Shown: positions 26,537 through 31,708 of the stretch, in pieces | Layout: every line of letters starts with the position of its first letter | Position numbering within the stretch: position 1 is the first letter of the stretch | Assembly (NCBI GenBank): GCA_009697815.1 | Contig: WLRQ01000020.1 | Location: 1 to 40,707, forward strand | Source of the DNA: Actinomycetota bacterium | GTDB taxonomy: Bacteria > Actinomycetota > Actinomycetes > S36-B12 > CAIYMF01 | Direction of reading: 5' to 3' | Length of the DNA: 40,707 bases | Program-made: the position numbers and the translations under genes | The notes under the pieces: model-generated | The model's input: the letters and a program-made list of their open reading frames with translations, nothing else | What the model was told of the DNA's origin: nothing | Database searches by the model: none

Positions 26537-26672
26537 CGGTGAATGTGCCCTGAGCGGCCCTAGAGGCCGCTGGGCTTCCCCCGATCATGAAGAACGCCGA
26601 TTCTCGAGACGTGCCTGTGGACACAGTGGGGAAGAAGAAGGGCTTCTAGGGCCGCTCAGGGCACATTCACCG
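26537..26672. repeat. 28-bp perfect inverted repeat with an 80-bp spacer
   Basis: Positions 26537-26564 are exactly complementary, in reverse, to 26645-26672. The element sits between the stops of the convergent CPBP and ornithine aminotransferase genes, and the right arm includes the stop codon of the latter (26667-26669). The spacer carries a 20-codon open frame (26587-26649). Possible readings are an unusual bidirectional terminator, a copy of an interspersed palindromic element, or a small non-autonomous mobile element; no target-site duplication was seen. Confidence 0.95.
26547..26575 (+). terminator. Local hairpin inside the left arm of the inverted repeat
   Basis: GCCC (26547-26550) with GGGC (26572-26575) and AGCGGCC (26553-26559) with GGCCGCT (26565-26571) form a strong stem with a TG bulge and a 5-nt loop, followed by TTCCCC. 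It lies 19 nt after the CPBP stop and overlaps 26537-26564, so it competes with pairing between the two long arms. Confidence 0.65.
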
Positions 26673-27881
26673 CAAACGGGGTGGGGTGGTGAGGACGTCG
26701 GTGATGGTGGCCAGGGCGTGAGCGAGGTCTGGTTCGGAGATGGTGAGGGGTGGGGCGAATCGGATCGTCCAGGTGTGGGTGTCCTTCGCCAGGATTCCGC
26801 GGGTGAGCAGGTCGAGGCTGACGTCGCGACCTGTGCGACCGGTGCCGTCGAGTTCGACCGCCCACCACAGGCCGCTACCGCGGATCTCCTTCACTCCGGG
26901 CAACGACGCGCCTCGCAACGTGTCGAGCACGCGCGCGCCGAGACGATGTGAGCGCTCGGGTAGCCCGTCGCTCTCGAGAAGCGAAACCACAGCGATACCC
27001 ACGGCAGCCGCGAGCGGGTTCCCGCCGAAGGTACTGCCGTGCTCGCCCGGCTTGAGAACGCCCAGGACGTCCCAGTCGGCCGTGATCGCCGACACGGGGA
27101 GGATCCCGCCGCCCAGTGCCTTCCCGAGGATTCGAATGTCGGGCTGGACGCCGACAAGATCGCATGCGAACAACGCACCCGCGCGGCCGAGCCCTGACTG
27201 GATCTCGTCGGCAACGAACAGCACCCCTCGACCGGAGCACAGATCGCGAGCGGCCTGCAGAAACCCGGGAGGAGGCAGTACGACGCCCGCCTCGCCCTGA
27301 ATCGGTTCGACGAGGAACGCCACCGTCCGATCGTTGATCGCAGCCTCGAGCGCACCGATGTCACCGAAGGGCACCGTGCGGAATCCGGGCGTGAACGGAC
27401 CGAAGCCGCGCCGCGCCAACGGGTCATCGGAGAAGGAGATGATGGTTGTCGTACGCCCGTGGAAGTTGCCCGCGCACACGATGATCTCGGCTTCGTCAGC
27501 CGCCACACCCTTGCGTTCGTAGCCCCACTTCCGCGCGACCTTGATCGCCGTTTCGACGCCCTCGGCCCCTGAGTTCATGGGCAGGACGGCGTCATGCCGG
27601 GCGAGACGAGCGAGATCGCTGCAGAACTGTCCGAGGCGGTCGTTGTGGAAAGCACGGCTCGTCAGGGTGATCCGGTCCAACTGCTCCTTCGCGGCGCGGA
27701 CAAGTGCCGGATGCCGGTGGCCGAAGTTGATGGCCGAATACGCCGACAGCATGTCGAGGTATCTGCGGCCCTCGACGTCGGTGACCCACGCGCCTTCGCC
27801 CTCGGAGATCACTACCGGGAGCGGGTGGTAATTGTGCGCGCAGTGGGCGGCCTCGAAGGCAATGGCCTCGTCGGTGGTCAC
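26667..27881 (-). CDS. rocD: Ornithine aminotransferase
   Basis: A 404-aa class III PLP aminotransferase converting ornithine and 2-oxoglutarate to glutamate semialdehyde and glutamate, linking arginine and proline metabolism. MNSGAEGVETAIKVARKWGY, GNFHGRTTTIISFSDD, VADEIQSGLGRAG (PLP ring Asp225) and the PLP lysine Lys254 in ILGKALGGGILPVSA match the RocD group; related acetylornithine or diaminobutyrate enzymes are less likely from this pattern. GTG 27881 has GGAGGA just upstream; the longer frame to 27965 is unsupported. The stop codon lies in the right arm of the long inverted repeat. It is divergent from the glycosyltransferase operon. Confidence 0.9.
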   Translation of the reverse strand: MTTDEAIAFEAAHCAHNYHPLPVVISEGEGAWVTDVEGRRYLDMLSAYSAINFGHRHPALVRAAKEQLDRITLTSRAFHNDRLGQFCSDLARLARHDAVLPMNSGAEGVETAIKVARKWGYERKGVAADEAEIIVCAGNFHGRTTTIISFSDDPLARRGFGPFTPGFRTVPFGDIGALEAAINDRTVAFLVEPIQGEAGVVLPPPGFLQAARDLCSGRGVLFVADEIQSGLGRAGALFACDLVGVQPDIRILGKALGGGILPVSAITADWDVLGVLKPGEHGSTFGGNPLAAAVGIAVVSLLESDGLPERSHRLGARVLDTLRGASLPGVKEIRGSGLWWAVELDGTGRTGRDVSLDLLTRGILAKDTHTWTIRFAPPLTISEPDLAHALATITDVLTTPPRLR

Positions 27882-28032
27882 GGCTCCTCCTCGCAGGCCC
27901 GCTCTGACGAACGGCCTCGGCACCACGCTGCCACGACGGGGCCGCCGATGCGGGTCACACAGCAAGGTGGTGGAGACTGGTCCTCAGCGTCTGGAAGCCA
28001 GAACATATGCCGACTGATACCTGTGAGGTCCT

Positions 28033-29385
28033 ATGTCCGACCGACCGTTGACCATCCTGTTCATGCCCGAGTCGGCCTATGGGCCCACCAATCAGTGCAT
28101 CGGACTCGGCAACGTACTGCGTCAACGTGGCCATCGCGTGGTGTTCGCCGCGGAGGCGTCCTGGAAGGGCAAACTCGAAGCGCTCGGATTCGAGGAGGAC
28201 CTCGTCGACCTAGCTCCACCAGCGGAGCCCACAGATGACGCAGTGGCTACCCAGGAGGCAGGGCAGTTCTGGAAGGACTTCATCCGCGAGACGGCCCCCG
28301 AGTTCCGTAAACCCACGGTGGAGCAGCTCGCTACATTCATTCAGCCCACATGGCAGGCCCTGATCGACGGAGCCGTCTACTGCGAGCCACAGTTGCGCGC
28401 GATCCTCACGCGAGTTCAACCAGATGTCGTGGTGGAGGACAACGTCGTCGCCTTTCCCGCACTCATGACCTCGGGTGCGCCGTTCGTCAGAATTGTGTCC
28501 TGCAACCCGCTGGAGCTCAGCGGCAACGAGGTTCCTCCAGCCTTTTCCGGCCTCCCTGGGAATGACCGAAGCGAGTGGGCCGATTTCAGTGCCGAGTACG
28601 ACCGCACCCACCGCGAGATGTGGGCCGCGTTCAACTCCTGGGTCATCGAACAAGGCGCCCAGCCCCTGGCCGACCTTCAGTTCATCCACACCTCGGAACA
28701 CGCGAACCTCTACGTGTTCCCCGAAGAGGCTGACTACACCGCGAGCCGACCCCTCGACACGACCTGGCACCGCATGGACTCCAGCGTGCGCGAGACGGAC
28801 CAGGGATATGAGCTACCTCCTTCCGTGCGAGACAGACCAGAGGGCAGCGCGCTGATCTACCTATCGCTCGGTTCCCTGGGCAGCGCGGACGTCGACCTCA
28901 TGCGACGACTTGTGGACGTCCTGGGCCGCACTCCGCACCGGTTCATCGTGAGCAAGGGCCCGCAGCACTCCGAGTTCGAGCTCGCGGCGAACATGGTCGG
29001 TTCCGAATTCCTTCCGCAGACCACGCTCATACCTCAGGTCGACGCGGTGATCACGCACGGCGGCAACAACACCACGACCGAGTCCCTTCACTTCGGCAAG
29101 CCAATGATCCTGCTTCCGCTGTTCTGGGATCAGTACGACAATGCCCAGCGCATGCACGAGCTCGGATTCGGCGTTCGCCTCGCGACCTATGACTTCACTG
29201 AAGCCGACATGCACGCAGCTCTCGAGGCGGTGCTCGATCCGGAGCTGGGCAATCGGATGGCGGCCATCGGTCGGGACGTGCGCGCTAGGAACGGATTGAG
29301 ACGTGGCGCAGATGTCATCGAGGCAGTGGCTCGTGCTTACGCGGACTCACAGTTGGACTCTGCCGCGGGGGCATCCGGCGAGTGA
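28033..29385 (+). CDS. GT1-family (UGT/MGT-like) glycosyltransferase
   Basis: A 450-aa GT-B fold enzyme transferring a sugar from a nucleotide donor to a small acceptor. The N-terminal half begins LTILFMPESAYGPTNQCIGL with a GHRVVFAAE strand, and the C-terminal half has IYLSLGSLGS, FLPQTTLIPQVDAVITHGGNNTTTE (split by me for length) and PLFWDQYDNAQRM, the donor-binding signature of GT1 enzymes such as antibiotic and plant UGTs. No signal peptide, so cytosolic. Donor and acceptor are unknown. ATG 28033 has GAGG 5 nt upstream. The stop overlaps the GTG of the following kinase (GTGA), so the two are coupled. Confidence 0.88.
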   Translation: MSDRPLTILFMPESAYGPTNQCIGLGNVLRQRGHRVVFAAEASWKGKLEALGFEEDLVDLAPPAEPTDDAVATQEAGQFWKDFIRETAPEFRKPTVEQLATFIQPTWQALIDGAVYCEPQLRAILTRVQPDVVVEDNVVAFPALMTSGAPFVRIVSCNPLELSGNEVPPAFSGLPGNDRSEWADFSAEYDRTHREMWAAFNSWVIEQGAQPLADLQFIHTSEHANLYVFPEEADYTASRPLDTTWHRMDSSVRETDQGYELPPSVRDRPEGSALIYLSLGSLGSADVDLMRRLVDVLGRTPHRFIVSKGPQHSEFELAANMVGSEFLPQTTLIPQVDAVITHGGNNTTTESLHFGKPMILLPLFWDQYDNAQRMHELGFGVRLATYDFTEADMHAALEAVLDPELGNRMAAIGRDVRARNGLRRGADVIEAVARAYADSQLDSAAGASGE

Positions 29386-30743
29386 ACCCCACGCAACGTC
29401 TTTCGCGCCTGGTGGCCACCGCGCGGGGTGATCTCGTACTGCCGTTGCGTCCTCGGGCAGCCGCCGACGTTGTCGCCCTTCCGTTGCGGCTAGCTGACGC
29501 TCTCGACCTCGGAGCGTCCCGGTGGGTGTGCGTCGTGATCGATGCCGACGGCGGGCAATGGACGGTGCCCGTGGTCGAGGGGTCCGGAGAAGTTCGTCGG
29601 GCGATCGCGGGTGACGGCGTCGCGGCAGCACTCGTGACCATGTTGGCTGGCTCCGGCGAGCCCGCCTCCCCCGCATTCGTCATGCGCCGCTGGCGACATC
29701 CCCTGCCGGACAACGCATCCAAGCAACGCAAGCTTCTCTCCGAAGCGGGTACCCATGAGCGCTCGATCGCGGTCGACCAGACGAACGACTCGATCGTGGT
29801 CGGCGAAAGGGCTGTCGTGAAGTGGGCGGTTCGGCTTCCCGCTGATCACTCGGTGGAGCAACCCGCAGCCCGCCGACTCGGCATGTTGGCCGACCATGGA
29901 TTCTCTGGTATCCCGGCCACACTCGGAATGCTGCAATGGACTGGCAGTCCACCACATCCTGCGCTCCTCGCCTCGGTCACCGAGTTCCTCCCGGGGGCAG
30001 TCGATGGATGGACGTGGGCCGTTGACGACGTCCGCGCCTTCGCCGCCGGAGACGTGGCTGCCGACAACGCCCTATTGCCAGCACGTCAACTCGGCGTTCT
30101 GGTCGCCGGAATGCATGTGGCCTTCGCGTCCAGCGGACGAGCCGTGGCCGATGAGAAGACCACCCAGCGGTGGCGAGATCGGGCGAACCACGCACTCGAT
30201 GACGCGCTAAGGCTCGTCGACGGCCCGGAGGGCGAGCGACTCGCGCGACGCGCACCCCGCATACGGGCGGCATTCGAGACCTTCCTCGAGACTTCCGGCA
30301 CGCCCCTCATCGACGTACATGGGGACCTCCACGTCGGTCAGGTCCTGCGACACGGCAGTCCGTCCCGCTATGCGCTCATCGACTTCGATGGCAACCCGGT
30401 GACCGCGATCGAGGAAGGCGCACGACGCCAACCAGTGGCCCTCGATGTCGCTGGCATGCTCGCCTCCCTGGACCACGTGGGCCGAGTGGTCATCAAGCGC
30501 ACCGACGGGGTTGACGTGGATGCCGTCCTCGCATGGATCGGGCAGGCCCAAGCGACGTTCTTCGCGGCATACCGGTCAGCGCTGCTCGAGGCCGGAGCCG
30601 GTGCCCTGCTCGATGACCGCGTGATTCGTCCCCTGCAACTCGAGCAAGAGTGCCGGGAATTCATCTACGCCGTGCGTCATCTCCCGCACTGGCGATACGT
30701 TCCAGATGCCGCCCTGTCGGCCCTGCTGCCCGATGAGGAGTGA
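29382..30743 (+). CDS. Maltokinase/glucosamine-kinase-like sugar kinase
   Basis: A 453-aa protein of the aminoglycoside-phosphotransferase-like kinase fold. An N-terminal cap (1-130) precedes a region containing the catalytic loop VHGDLHVGQVLR (His313, Asp315) and the metal-binding LIDFDGNP (Asp334). HGDLHxGQVLR, the cap domain and PVALDVAGMLASLDH are features of mycobacterial maltokinase and of the related actinobacterial glucosamine kinases described from Streptacidiphilus. Which sugar is phosphorylated cannot be read from the sequence; the SIS protein next door favours glucosamine or another aminosugar. There are no trehalose synthase or GlgE genes here, which argues against maltose. GTGA overlap with the glycosyltransferase and probable coupling to the SIS gene. 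Confidence 0.82.
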   Translation: MNPTQRLSRLVATARGDLVLPLRPRAAADVVALPLRLADALDLGASRWVCVVIDADGGQWTVPVVEGSGEVRRAIAGDGVAAALVTMLAGSGEPASPAFVMRRWRHPLPDNASKQRKLLSEAGTHERSIAVDQTNDSIVVGERAVVKWAVRLPADHSVEQPAARRLGMLADHGFSGIPATLGMLQWTGSPPHPALLASVTEFLPGAVDGWTWAVDDVRAFAAGDVAADNALLPARQLGVLVAGMHVAFASSGRAVADEKTTQRWRDRANHALDDALRLVDGPEGERLARRAPRIRAAFETFLETSGTPLIDVHGDLHVGQVLRHGSPSRYALIDFDGNPVTAIEEGARRQPVALDVAGMLASLDHVGRVVIKRTDGVDVDAVLAWIGQAQATFFAAYRSALLEAGAGALLDDRVIRPLQLEQECREFIYAVRHLPHWRYVPDAALSALLPDEE

Positions 30744-30748
30744 CCCGC

Positions 30749-31708
30749 GTGGACCCTGATCTCTTCGCCGCCGATCTCGAGGCCAAGCCACGCTTCCTTC
30801 GCGAGTTGAGCGAACTCCTCACTGGTGCAGACCCGTGGTCGGTCCTGCCCATGGGCACGAGGTTCGTCTTCGTGGGGATGGGGTCGTCGCACTATGCGGC
30901 ATCCATCGCTGCCGCTCGACTTCGCGCCCGCGGTGTCAACGCCGTGGCCGAACTCGCGAGCAGCGACCTGCTGCCAGCACCGGATGGTCATACTGTCGTA
31001 ATCGCCGTGTCGGCTGGCGGCGGCTCCCGCGAGACTGCATCCGCCGTGCAGTGGTACGCGGGTCACTGCCCGATCGTGCTTCTCACCAACCGACTCGAGT
31101 CTCCTCTCGTGCACGCCGTTGACGCGGTTGTCCCCATGAGCGCTGGCGATGAGCAGGGCGGTGTGGCTTGTCGAACTTTCCAACACACGCTTGTCATGCT
31201 GCTCGCACTTGAAGCCCGACTCGCAAGCCCCTCGCTCGACCTCCCGACGCTGGTAACAGCAGCGGCACGTGCGACAAGTGACCTACTCGATAGACGCGCC
31301 CAGTGGTTGCCCGAGCTCACAGGTCTGCTGGTCGGGCCCGACGGCATTCACGTCGTCGCCCCCGCACGCCGGCTGTCTTCCTCTCAGCAGTCGTCGCTCA
31401 TGCTGCGCGAGGGCCCGCGGATCCCAGCCACGGCAAGCGAAACCGGCGACTGGAACCACGTCGACGTGTATCTCACGAAATCCACGGACTACCGGCTTCT
31501 CCTGCTCACTGGTTCGCCATGGGAGGAAGAACTGCTGAAGTGGACCAACAAGCGGGGGTCCACGGTGGTGGCCGTAGGAGCCGATGTACCGGGCGCCGCC
31601 ATGTCTCTGCGGTATGAAGGTGACGACAACGACGACGTGCGCTTGCTCACCGAGACGCTGGTCGCCGAGTTGCTTGCCGCCAGCCTGTGGCGCAGCCAGT
31701 CGTCGTAG
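30749..31708 (+). CDS. Double-SIS domain protein (GlmS-isomerase/aminosugar isomerase-like)
   Basis: A 319-aa cytosolic protein made of two SIS domains. The first starts at FVFVGMGSSHYAASIAAARL with phosphosugar-binding Ser residues in VIAVSAGGGSRET; VALL-type ACRTFQHTLVMLLALEARL links to the second at GIHVVAPARRLSSSQQSSLM. The arrangement is that of the GlmS isomerase half and of aminosugar-6-phosphate deaminase/isomerases such as AgaS, but no glutaminase domain is present. Likely acts on the phosphosugar made by the preceding kinase; this is inference from coupling. GTG 30749 has GAGGAG 8 nt upstream; GTG 30740, overlapping the kinase stop as GTGA, is an alternative start. Confidence 0.82.
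   Translation: MDPDLFAADLEAKPRFLRELSELLTGADPWSVLPMGTRFVFVGMGSSHYAASIAAARLRARGVNAVAELASSDLLPAPDGHTVVIAVSAGGGSRETASAVQWYAGHCPIVLLTNRLESPLVHAVDAVVPMSAGDEQGGVACRTFQHTLVMLLALEARLASPSLDLPTLVTAAARATSDLLDRRAQWLPELTGLLVGPDGIHVVAPARRLSSSQQSSLMLREGPRIPATASETGDWNHVDVYLTKSTDYRLLLLTGSPWEEELLKWTNKRGSTVVAVGADVPGAAMSLRYEGDDNDDVRLLTETLVAELLAASLWRSQSS

Follow-up and report, generated by a model that had tools for sequence, protein, structure and literature searches.

A glycosyltransferase, glucosamine-kinase-family and SIS gene trio of an actinobacterium and its possible place in amine catabolism

The closest described system is the gene association around SjGlcNK, the glucosamine (GlcN) kinase of Streptacidiphilus jiangxiensis. 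According to the abstract, opening text, complex and specificity sections and discussion of Manso et al. 2019 (PMC6520443), on which all statements about this system rest here, the kinase is tightly associated with a COG2222 SIS protein and a family 1 glycosyltransferase (GT1) protein in S. jiangxiensis and other Actinobacteria, and several of the clusters were placed within predicted biosynthetic gene clusters. The S. jiangxiensis operon also carries phosphoglucomutase and UTP-glucose-1-phosphate uridylyltransferase genes. SjGlcNK phosphorylates GlcN at O6, and GlcN kinase activity was also found in the homologue MsGlcNK; among 20 sugars and 4 aminoglycosides tested with SjGlcNK, GlcN was the sole good acceptor (Michaelis constant, Km, 8 mM) and maltose was not used. 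A role in secondary metabolism was suggested, and experimental evidence for the physiological role was said to be lacking. Here a glycosyltransferase (GT), a kinase and a SIS protein of the same three families were analyzed in a 40,707-nucleotide stretch (the window) of contig WLRQ01000020.1 from the Actinomycetota bacterium assembly GCA_009697815.1 (2.66 Mb, 112 contigs, 93% complete). A sequence-only reading of the window had not recognized this exact trio; it was already in print, and the window trio is a real case of the published gene association. What is new here is its genomic context, a change in the GT active site and a change in a linked PotD-like protein.

The overlapping three-gene arrangement in that reading was borne out: the open reading frames (ORFs) lie where it had placed them, the GT-kinase and kinase-SIS junctions are each a 4-base GTGA overlap, and the Pfam families agree (73.8 bits against a cut-off of 19.5 for PF00201 (UDPGT) in the GT, 23.3 against 23.2 for PF01636 (APH) in the kinase and 31.7 against 25 for PF01380 in the SIS protein). 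A pattern scan of genome contigs gave 66 kinase loci from 175 candidate stretches, and neighbors were tallied over the whole of the DNA fetched around each locus (at most 8 kb on either side). The triplet is conserved in other genomes: a GT was present at 59 of the 66 loci, a SIS gene at 63 and both at 57. In 63/66 loci the kinase is followed directly by a SIS gene in the same orientation. For the GT, a tally that accepts shorter matches than the presence count of 59 gave 41 loci with the gene directly 5' of the kinase in the same orientation, 16 with it on the opposite strand (15 of them 3.4–4.9 kb away), 3 with it at another place and 6 with no GT in the DNA fetched; the kinase-SIS pair is therefore tight and the GT looser. 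Identity to the window copy was 59–75% for the GT (median 66, n = 60), 34–46% for the kinase (median 40, n = 66) and 43–59% for the SIS protein (median 53, n = 63), so that conservation is highest in the GT.

Among 396 genomes of the phylum, searched by a procedure that scores few candidates per genome and may miss some, the kinase was matched in 18 (E ≤ 1e-40), the GT in 41 (E ≤ 1e-60; three of these only 35–37% identical) and the SIS protein in 13 (E ≤ 1e-20). All 13 SIS genomes and 12 of the 18 kinase genomes also had the GT, and 10 had all three. The nesting of the SIS set within the GT set had a hypergeometric p of 2e-14, with no correction for relatedness. Kinase scores were weak in the six kinase genomes that lacked a GT match (E ~7e-47 to 2e-41), and G108, with a GT, was equally weak (1e-40). 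In G084 and G344 a kinase and a GT were present and no SIS gene was found, the G344 kinase contig being only 4 kb long. The association of the trio exceeds chance.

The nearest solved protein to the window kinase was SjGlcNK (6hwj, E 1.3e-116), with maltokinases at ~1e-17 to 1e-20. The glucosamine kinase model NF041273 gave 389 bits where its curated cut-off asks for 550; this cut-off is narrow, reached in 2/396 genomes, and because it was not reached, membership of the wider GlcNK family is claimed and not of that equivalog. All 12 SjGlcNK positions checked were unchanged in the window (W195, D300, H302, H348, Q405, R408, E409, Y412, A413, L417, P418 and W420), and both the GlcNK signature Q-x2-RE-x2-YA-x3-LP-x-W and the D-x-H motif were present, as QECREFIYAVRHLPHW and DVHGDLH. 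Across 78 aligned kinase rows, which include the window gene and duplicates, Q405 was Q in 75, E409 was E in 77, R408 was R in 57 and H348 was H in 60. Judged on sequence, the window kinase belongs to the glucosamine-kinase family and not to the maltokinases. Most Agromyces rows had Ala at R408 and Leu at H348 (SjGlcNK numbering). More broadly, in loci L054–L080 (Agromyces, Leucobacter, Arthrobacter and relatives) many kinases had Leu at H348, those of Agromyces had Ala at R408, and Q405 and E409 were kept; these changes hint at a different or larger substrate.

In GT1 enzymes the N-terminal His of a His-Asp dyad is the catalytic base, and HGGxNT...E...DQ is the C-terminal donor motif. In both sequence and structure comparisons, the window GT came closest, among solved proteins, to the spider-mite enzymes UGT203A2 (34%) and UGT202A2 (31%; Foldseek alignments), which ranked above every solved bacterial GT1 among the matches listed. 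No paper naming UGT202A2 was among the literature matches listed. Mite UGTs are thought to derive from bacteria, and the window GT family could be near their bacterial donor. At the site of the His in the two mite enzymes, Pro stood in 98/98 GT rows at ≥50% identity (two window-gene copies and some genes fetched twice included), with Asp136, the dyad Asp, and E13 kept in all 98. The surrounding motif P-E-S-A-Y-G-P-T-N had one exception each at S and Y among 65 rows, and Pro occupied the same site in three distant relatives (33–36%). Donor-motif residues H342, G343, G344, N345, N346, T347, E350, D366 and Q367 were invariant in 27 sequences. Its fold and domain mark the GT as a GT1, but its dyad is non-canonical, the catalytic His being absent. 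In the parts of the two sources drawn on, the H19Q variant of the plant GT1 UGT72B1 is reported to drop to 1/300 in O-glycosylation, whereas its N-glycosylation fell only to 1/2 (PMC8558338), and GT1s in which Cys replaces the His were selective for N-glycosylation with weak O-glycosylation remaining (PMC12246196). From these reports the Pro-for-His change predicts an amine acceptor, and the trio GT is a predicted N-glycosyltransferase without the usual catalytic histidine, a prediction by analogy rather than proof.

Twenty-six clusters of neighbors other than the trio recurred in at least 4 loci, and families were scanned for 8 of them. These comprised PotA-, PotB-, PotC- and PotD-like proteins, whose representatives matched the corresponding models, a TetR-like regulator, a DAO-type FAD oxidase, an aminobutyraldehyde dehydrogenase-like protein and a penicillin-binding-type protein of some mycobacteria. 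The nearest NCBIfam models to the oxidase were aminophosphonate oxidoreductase and L-pipecolate oxidase, the dehydrogenase representative scored 611 bits against a cut-off of 615 for NF010000 (aminobutyraldehyde dehydrogenase), and the TetR-like label rests on length and sequence, its representative having had no NCBIfam or Pfam hit at the cut-offs used. At 31 non-mycobacterial kinase loci PotD was present in 29, TetR in 27, the oxidase in 20, the dehydrogenase in 11 and any of these in 30; at 35 Mycobacteriaceae loci the counts were 0, 8, 7, 7 and 10. The first group is weighted by several Agromyces species, and the counts stand without a random-locus control. The loci whose GTs are nearest that of the window (L083, 75%; L020, 73%; L022, 72%) all had PotABCD, TetR and the oxidase. 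In deeper lineages the GT and PotD were adjacent even where the kinase and SIS genes lay 13 kb or a contig away (G106, G160). PotD of this clade (E ≤ 1e-60) was matched in 5/396 genomes; four of these have it no more than 4 kb from the GT, and the search of the fifth, G127, gave no GT. Exact palindromes 5' of the regulator were compared at 35 loci for a shared TetR operator, and no half-site was common beyond five Agromyces loci.

PotD contacts the three amines of its ligand spermidine through Glu36, Glu171 and Asp257, according to the part of PMC4096761 drawn on. The linked PotD-like proteins, which are encoded outside the window, kept Asp257 in 33/33 rows and lost one of the three contacting acids in all 33, with Glu171 replaced by Trp and position 168 (Asp in PotD) by Thr; position 36 was Asp in 17, Ala in 6, Gly in 6 and another residue in 4 (one Glu). 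Given the Trp at 171 and the variation at 36, the ligand of this PotABCD-like importer is probably not spermidine but a cation with fewer amines.

The AlphaFold2 (AF2) model of the SIS protein (predicted local distance difference test, pLDDT, 94.2) matched 4s1w, 7kqa, 1moq and 8eym in Foldseek, covering the GlmS isomerase domain and GlcN-6-phosphate deaminases (7kqa, 8eym). Across 28 sequences E224 was nearly invariant and H240 invariant; we take them to be the counterparts of GlmS E488 and H504. The SIS protein keeps the catalytic Glu/His pair. Scores stayed below the NCBIfam cut-offs for glmS (35.8 of 418 bits) and NagB-II (25.9 of 430), so homology alone does not settle which reaction it catalyzes. 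An assignment of 3knz, the nearest solved SIS structure, to the glucoselysine (gfr) operon could not be confirmed and was dropped: a published table puts gfrABCDEF at STM4535-40, and 3knz is not named in the text drawn on. With the trio conserved, the kinase apart from the maltokinases and the SIS Glu/His pair kept, none of the refutations named in the sequence-only reading succeeds at the level of sequence.

Our leading, though still doubtful, explanation is that the trio does the sugar-handling half of the work in an amine-catabolic module. Uptake of a small amine would come first, in many lineages through the PotABCD-type importer encoded beside the trio, and the His-less GT1 would link it through nitrogen to the sugar of a UDP-sugar. 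The FAD amine oxidase and aldehyde dehydrogenase, where present, would turn the alkyl side of the conjugate into aldehyde and acid, leaving an aminosugar. The kinase would phosphorylate this aminosugar (or the conjugate) at O6, and the SIS protein would strip the nitrogen substituent and give back hexose 6-phosphate, as the FraD kinase and FraB deglycase do with fructosamines; the phosphoglucomutase and uridylyltransferase of the S. jiangxiensis operon could close a sugar-recycling loop. The module is proposed because it is the cheapest account of importer, His-less GT, oxidase, dehydrogenase, aminosugar kinase and SIS protein together; GlcN phosphorylation by two homologues is established, and the remaining steps, with the identity of the amine, are conjectural. 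A further version, which we consider quite unlikely, would make the sugar a reusable carrier for amine oxidation in a cycle of GT, oxidase, kinase, SIS protein, mutase and pyrophosphorylase that regenerates the UDP-sugar, the GT acceptor being a primary amine and the FAD oxidase splitting the secondary amine into aldehyde and aminosugar. The order given in the sequence-only reading (phosphorylation, isomerization, activation, transfer) was a guess that ignores the amine context of 30/31 non-mycobacterial loci.

Several observations weigh against an amine-catabolic module. No amine neighbor was found in the DNA fetched at 25/35 mycobacterial loci. The oxidase family is widespread: 60/396 genomes have it at E ≤ 1e-100, and a single one of these has it next to the GT. 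Being common, the oxidase is the weaker link, and its standing as a specific trio partner is weakened. The window genome has no close TetR (best 27%) or PotD (best 30%), its trio stands alone at the locus, and its other amine genes form a diverged Pot/oxidase/dehydrogenase operon on another contig (L129). Loss of the His also fits the use of another catalytic base, and weak O-glycosylation by His-less GT1s is described in the part of PMC12246196 drawn on. N-glycosylation would yield a C1 amine, and the kinases assayed favor GlcN, with its amine at C2. Six of 63 SIS loci (L032, L061, L062, L072, L076, L078) had no full-length GT in the DNA fetched, several of them being cut by contig ends and L032 and L076 being 17 kb long. 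A SIS match was missing in 28 of the 41 GT genomes, and one locus with the GT alone (L141) has MreB, MreC and RadC genes nearby, plus an aldehyde dehydrogenase. At 26 kinase loci without amine genes, the one or two ORFs closest on either side, 98 proteins matching 40 Pfam families in all, showed no recurring pathway, with DUF222 (6), acyltransferase (6) and ABC (5) among the 25 of 40 families listed; neither an amine nor an antibiotic reading is therefore supported there.

Other explanations were weighed against the same data. The trio could serve aminosugar salvage only, with the kinase making GlcN-6-phosphate from free GlcN or phosphorylating an N-substituted aminosugar, the SIS protein acting as a NagB-II-type deaminase or FraB-type deglycase, and the GT independent, for example in xenobiotic conjugation, and merely co-regulated. 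This account we hold to be only slightly less likely than the amine-catabolic module. The acceptor range of SjGlcNK (PMC6520443), the SIS fold with its deaminase matches and kept Glu/His pair, the tighter kinase-SIS link (63 against 41 of 66 loci) and the 28/41 GT genomes without a SIS match all suit it, yet a Km of 8 mM is poor for a true substrate (PMC6520443), and the amine oxidase and dehydrogenase are left unexplained. A SIS gene without a GT occurred in 0/13 genomes, odd if the GT is dispensable, although at the level of loci the GT is absent from the DNA fetched at 6/63.

The published proposal makes the trio a source of a secondary-metabolite building block, by way of GlcN, GlcN-6-phosphate, GlcN-1-phosphate and UDP-GlcN with GT transfer to an aglycon, or treats GlcN-6-phosphate as a DasR signal. 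Placement of several clusters within predicted biosynthetic gene clusters and the mutase and uridylyltransferase genes beside the S. jiangxiensis trio (PMC6520443) speak for this, but none of the 8 scanned neighbor clusters (of 26 recurring) was a polyketide synthase or nonribosomal peptide synthetase, and the 98 nearest-ORF proteins of the amine-less loci showed no ketosynthase, condensation or phosphoglucomutase domain among the 25 of 40 families listed, AMP-binding appearing in 3. The SIS protein also has no obvious place in that route, and we judge it unlikely for the trio. Least credible by far is a maltokinase of glycogen metabolism making maltose 1-phosphate: the fold is common to both and TIGR02457 gave a match of 92.6 bits, but this is far under the 375-bit cut-off, and His365 and Leu434 occupy the maltose-contacting Tyr and Arg positions, as in the maltose-inactive SjGlcNK. 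On that score and those sugar-contact residues a maltokinase identity was rejected.

The features of the window are collected in Table 1. An acyl-CoA ligase, noted earlier as following the trio, proved not to be a conserved partner. Its likely start (ATG 31809) lies 100 bases past the SIS stop, which marks a separate gene; ligase-like genes within 6 kb were found in only 10/83 non-window loci, at 24–34% identity and on the opposite strand in 9, and it was rejected as a fourth member. A closer relative (55%) lies near the GT at L148, a locus with the GT alone. An ornithine aminotransferase (26667–27965, minus strand; TIGR01885 480 bits against a cut-off of 378) adjoins the trio divergently from the GT; it was rejected as a partner, since a match of ≥120 bits occurred in 0/66 kinase loci.

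Table 1. Positions of the trio genes and their signature residues in the window
Feature	Position	Strand	Evidence
GT1-type UDP-sugar glycosyltransferase, 450 aa	28033..29385	+	PF00201 1.7e-20; AF2 model pLDDT 90.5
Glucosamine-kinase family protein (GlcNK), 453 aa, GTG start	29382..30743	+	6hwj E 1.3e-116; NF041273 389 bits
Double-SIS phosphosugar protein, 322 aa, GTG start, GlmS-isomerase / NagB-II fold	30740..31708	+	PF01380; AF2 pLDDT 94.2
GT signature P-E-S-A-Y-G-P-T-N-Q-C, residues 12-22	28066..28098	+	P18 aligns with His of UGT203A2 and UGT202A2
GlcN signature Q-x2-RE-x2-YA-x3-LP-x-W, kinase residues 422-437	30645..30692	+	window sequence compared with published motif
SIS residues E224 to H240	31409..31459	+	alignment pairs them with Glu and His residues of NagB-II (8eol)

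The polyamine-type operon on the other contig of the window genome (L129, 4676–17398) holds two aminobutyraldehyde dehydrogenases, PotABCD, a DAO oxidase, a methylmalonate-semialdehyde-type dehydrogenase and a divergent aminotransferase. The Pro-for-His GT also occurs without a kinase or SIS gene in the DNA fetched, at L130 and L135–L148 in several deep actinobacterial lineages; one such locus, L139, has a PotABCD set nearby. More distant GT relatives (~33–36%; L149, L150, L151) carry the motif PEAAFGPALNS, and L149 adjoins M42 aminopeptidase and cyclophilin genes. Nine neighbor proteins scanned at L141, L144 and L149 belonged mostly to housekeeping or unrelated families.

Nothing linking the trio to amine uptake or oxidation was found in the open-access literature (subscription journals were outside the coverage), and an amine-uptake context was not found in the sections of PMC6520443 named above. 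The structure of the kinase has been solved since 2019 and a pathway has been lacking; with the amine context, an orphan kinase labeled 'antibiotic-related' would gain a catabolic pathway that can be tested. In Puu and N-methylglutamate-type catabolism a primary amine is conjugated and then oxidized by a DAO-type FAD enzyme, with an aldehyde dehydrogenase also present in Puu. Those pathways conjugate with glutamate, whereas the trio module would use a sugar, and the carrier cycle, if true, would parallel the gamma-glutamyl and N-methylglutamate routes with a sugar as the carrier. FraB and FrlB are SIS proteins, and the kinase fold of FraD differs from the maltokinase/APH-like fold of the trio kinase. 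In the fructosamine route, the kinase makes an aminosugar-conjugate 6-phosphate and the deglycase gives hexose phosphate and amine; FraD/FraB and FrlD/FrlB resemble the trio in the kinase and deglycase logic proposed for its kinase and SIS protein, and differ in that the pathways, in the part of PMC9609667 drawn on, have no GT, whereas the trio has one and the deglycase role of its SIS protein is putative. Compared with the trio of S. jiangxiensis, from which it differs in having no adjacent phosphoglucomutase or uridylyltransferase gene and a kinase below the NCBIfam cut-off, the window trio has the same three families in the same tight association, and its kinase has the same GlcN-contact residues and signature.

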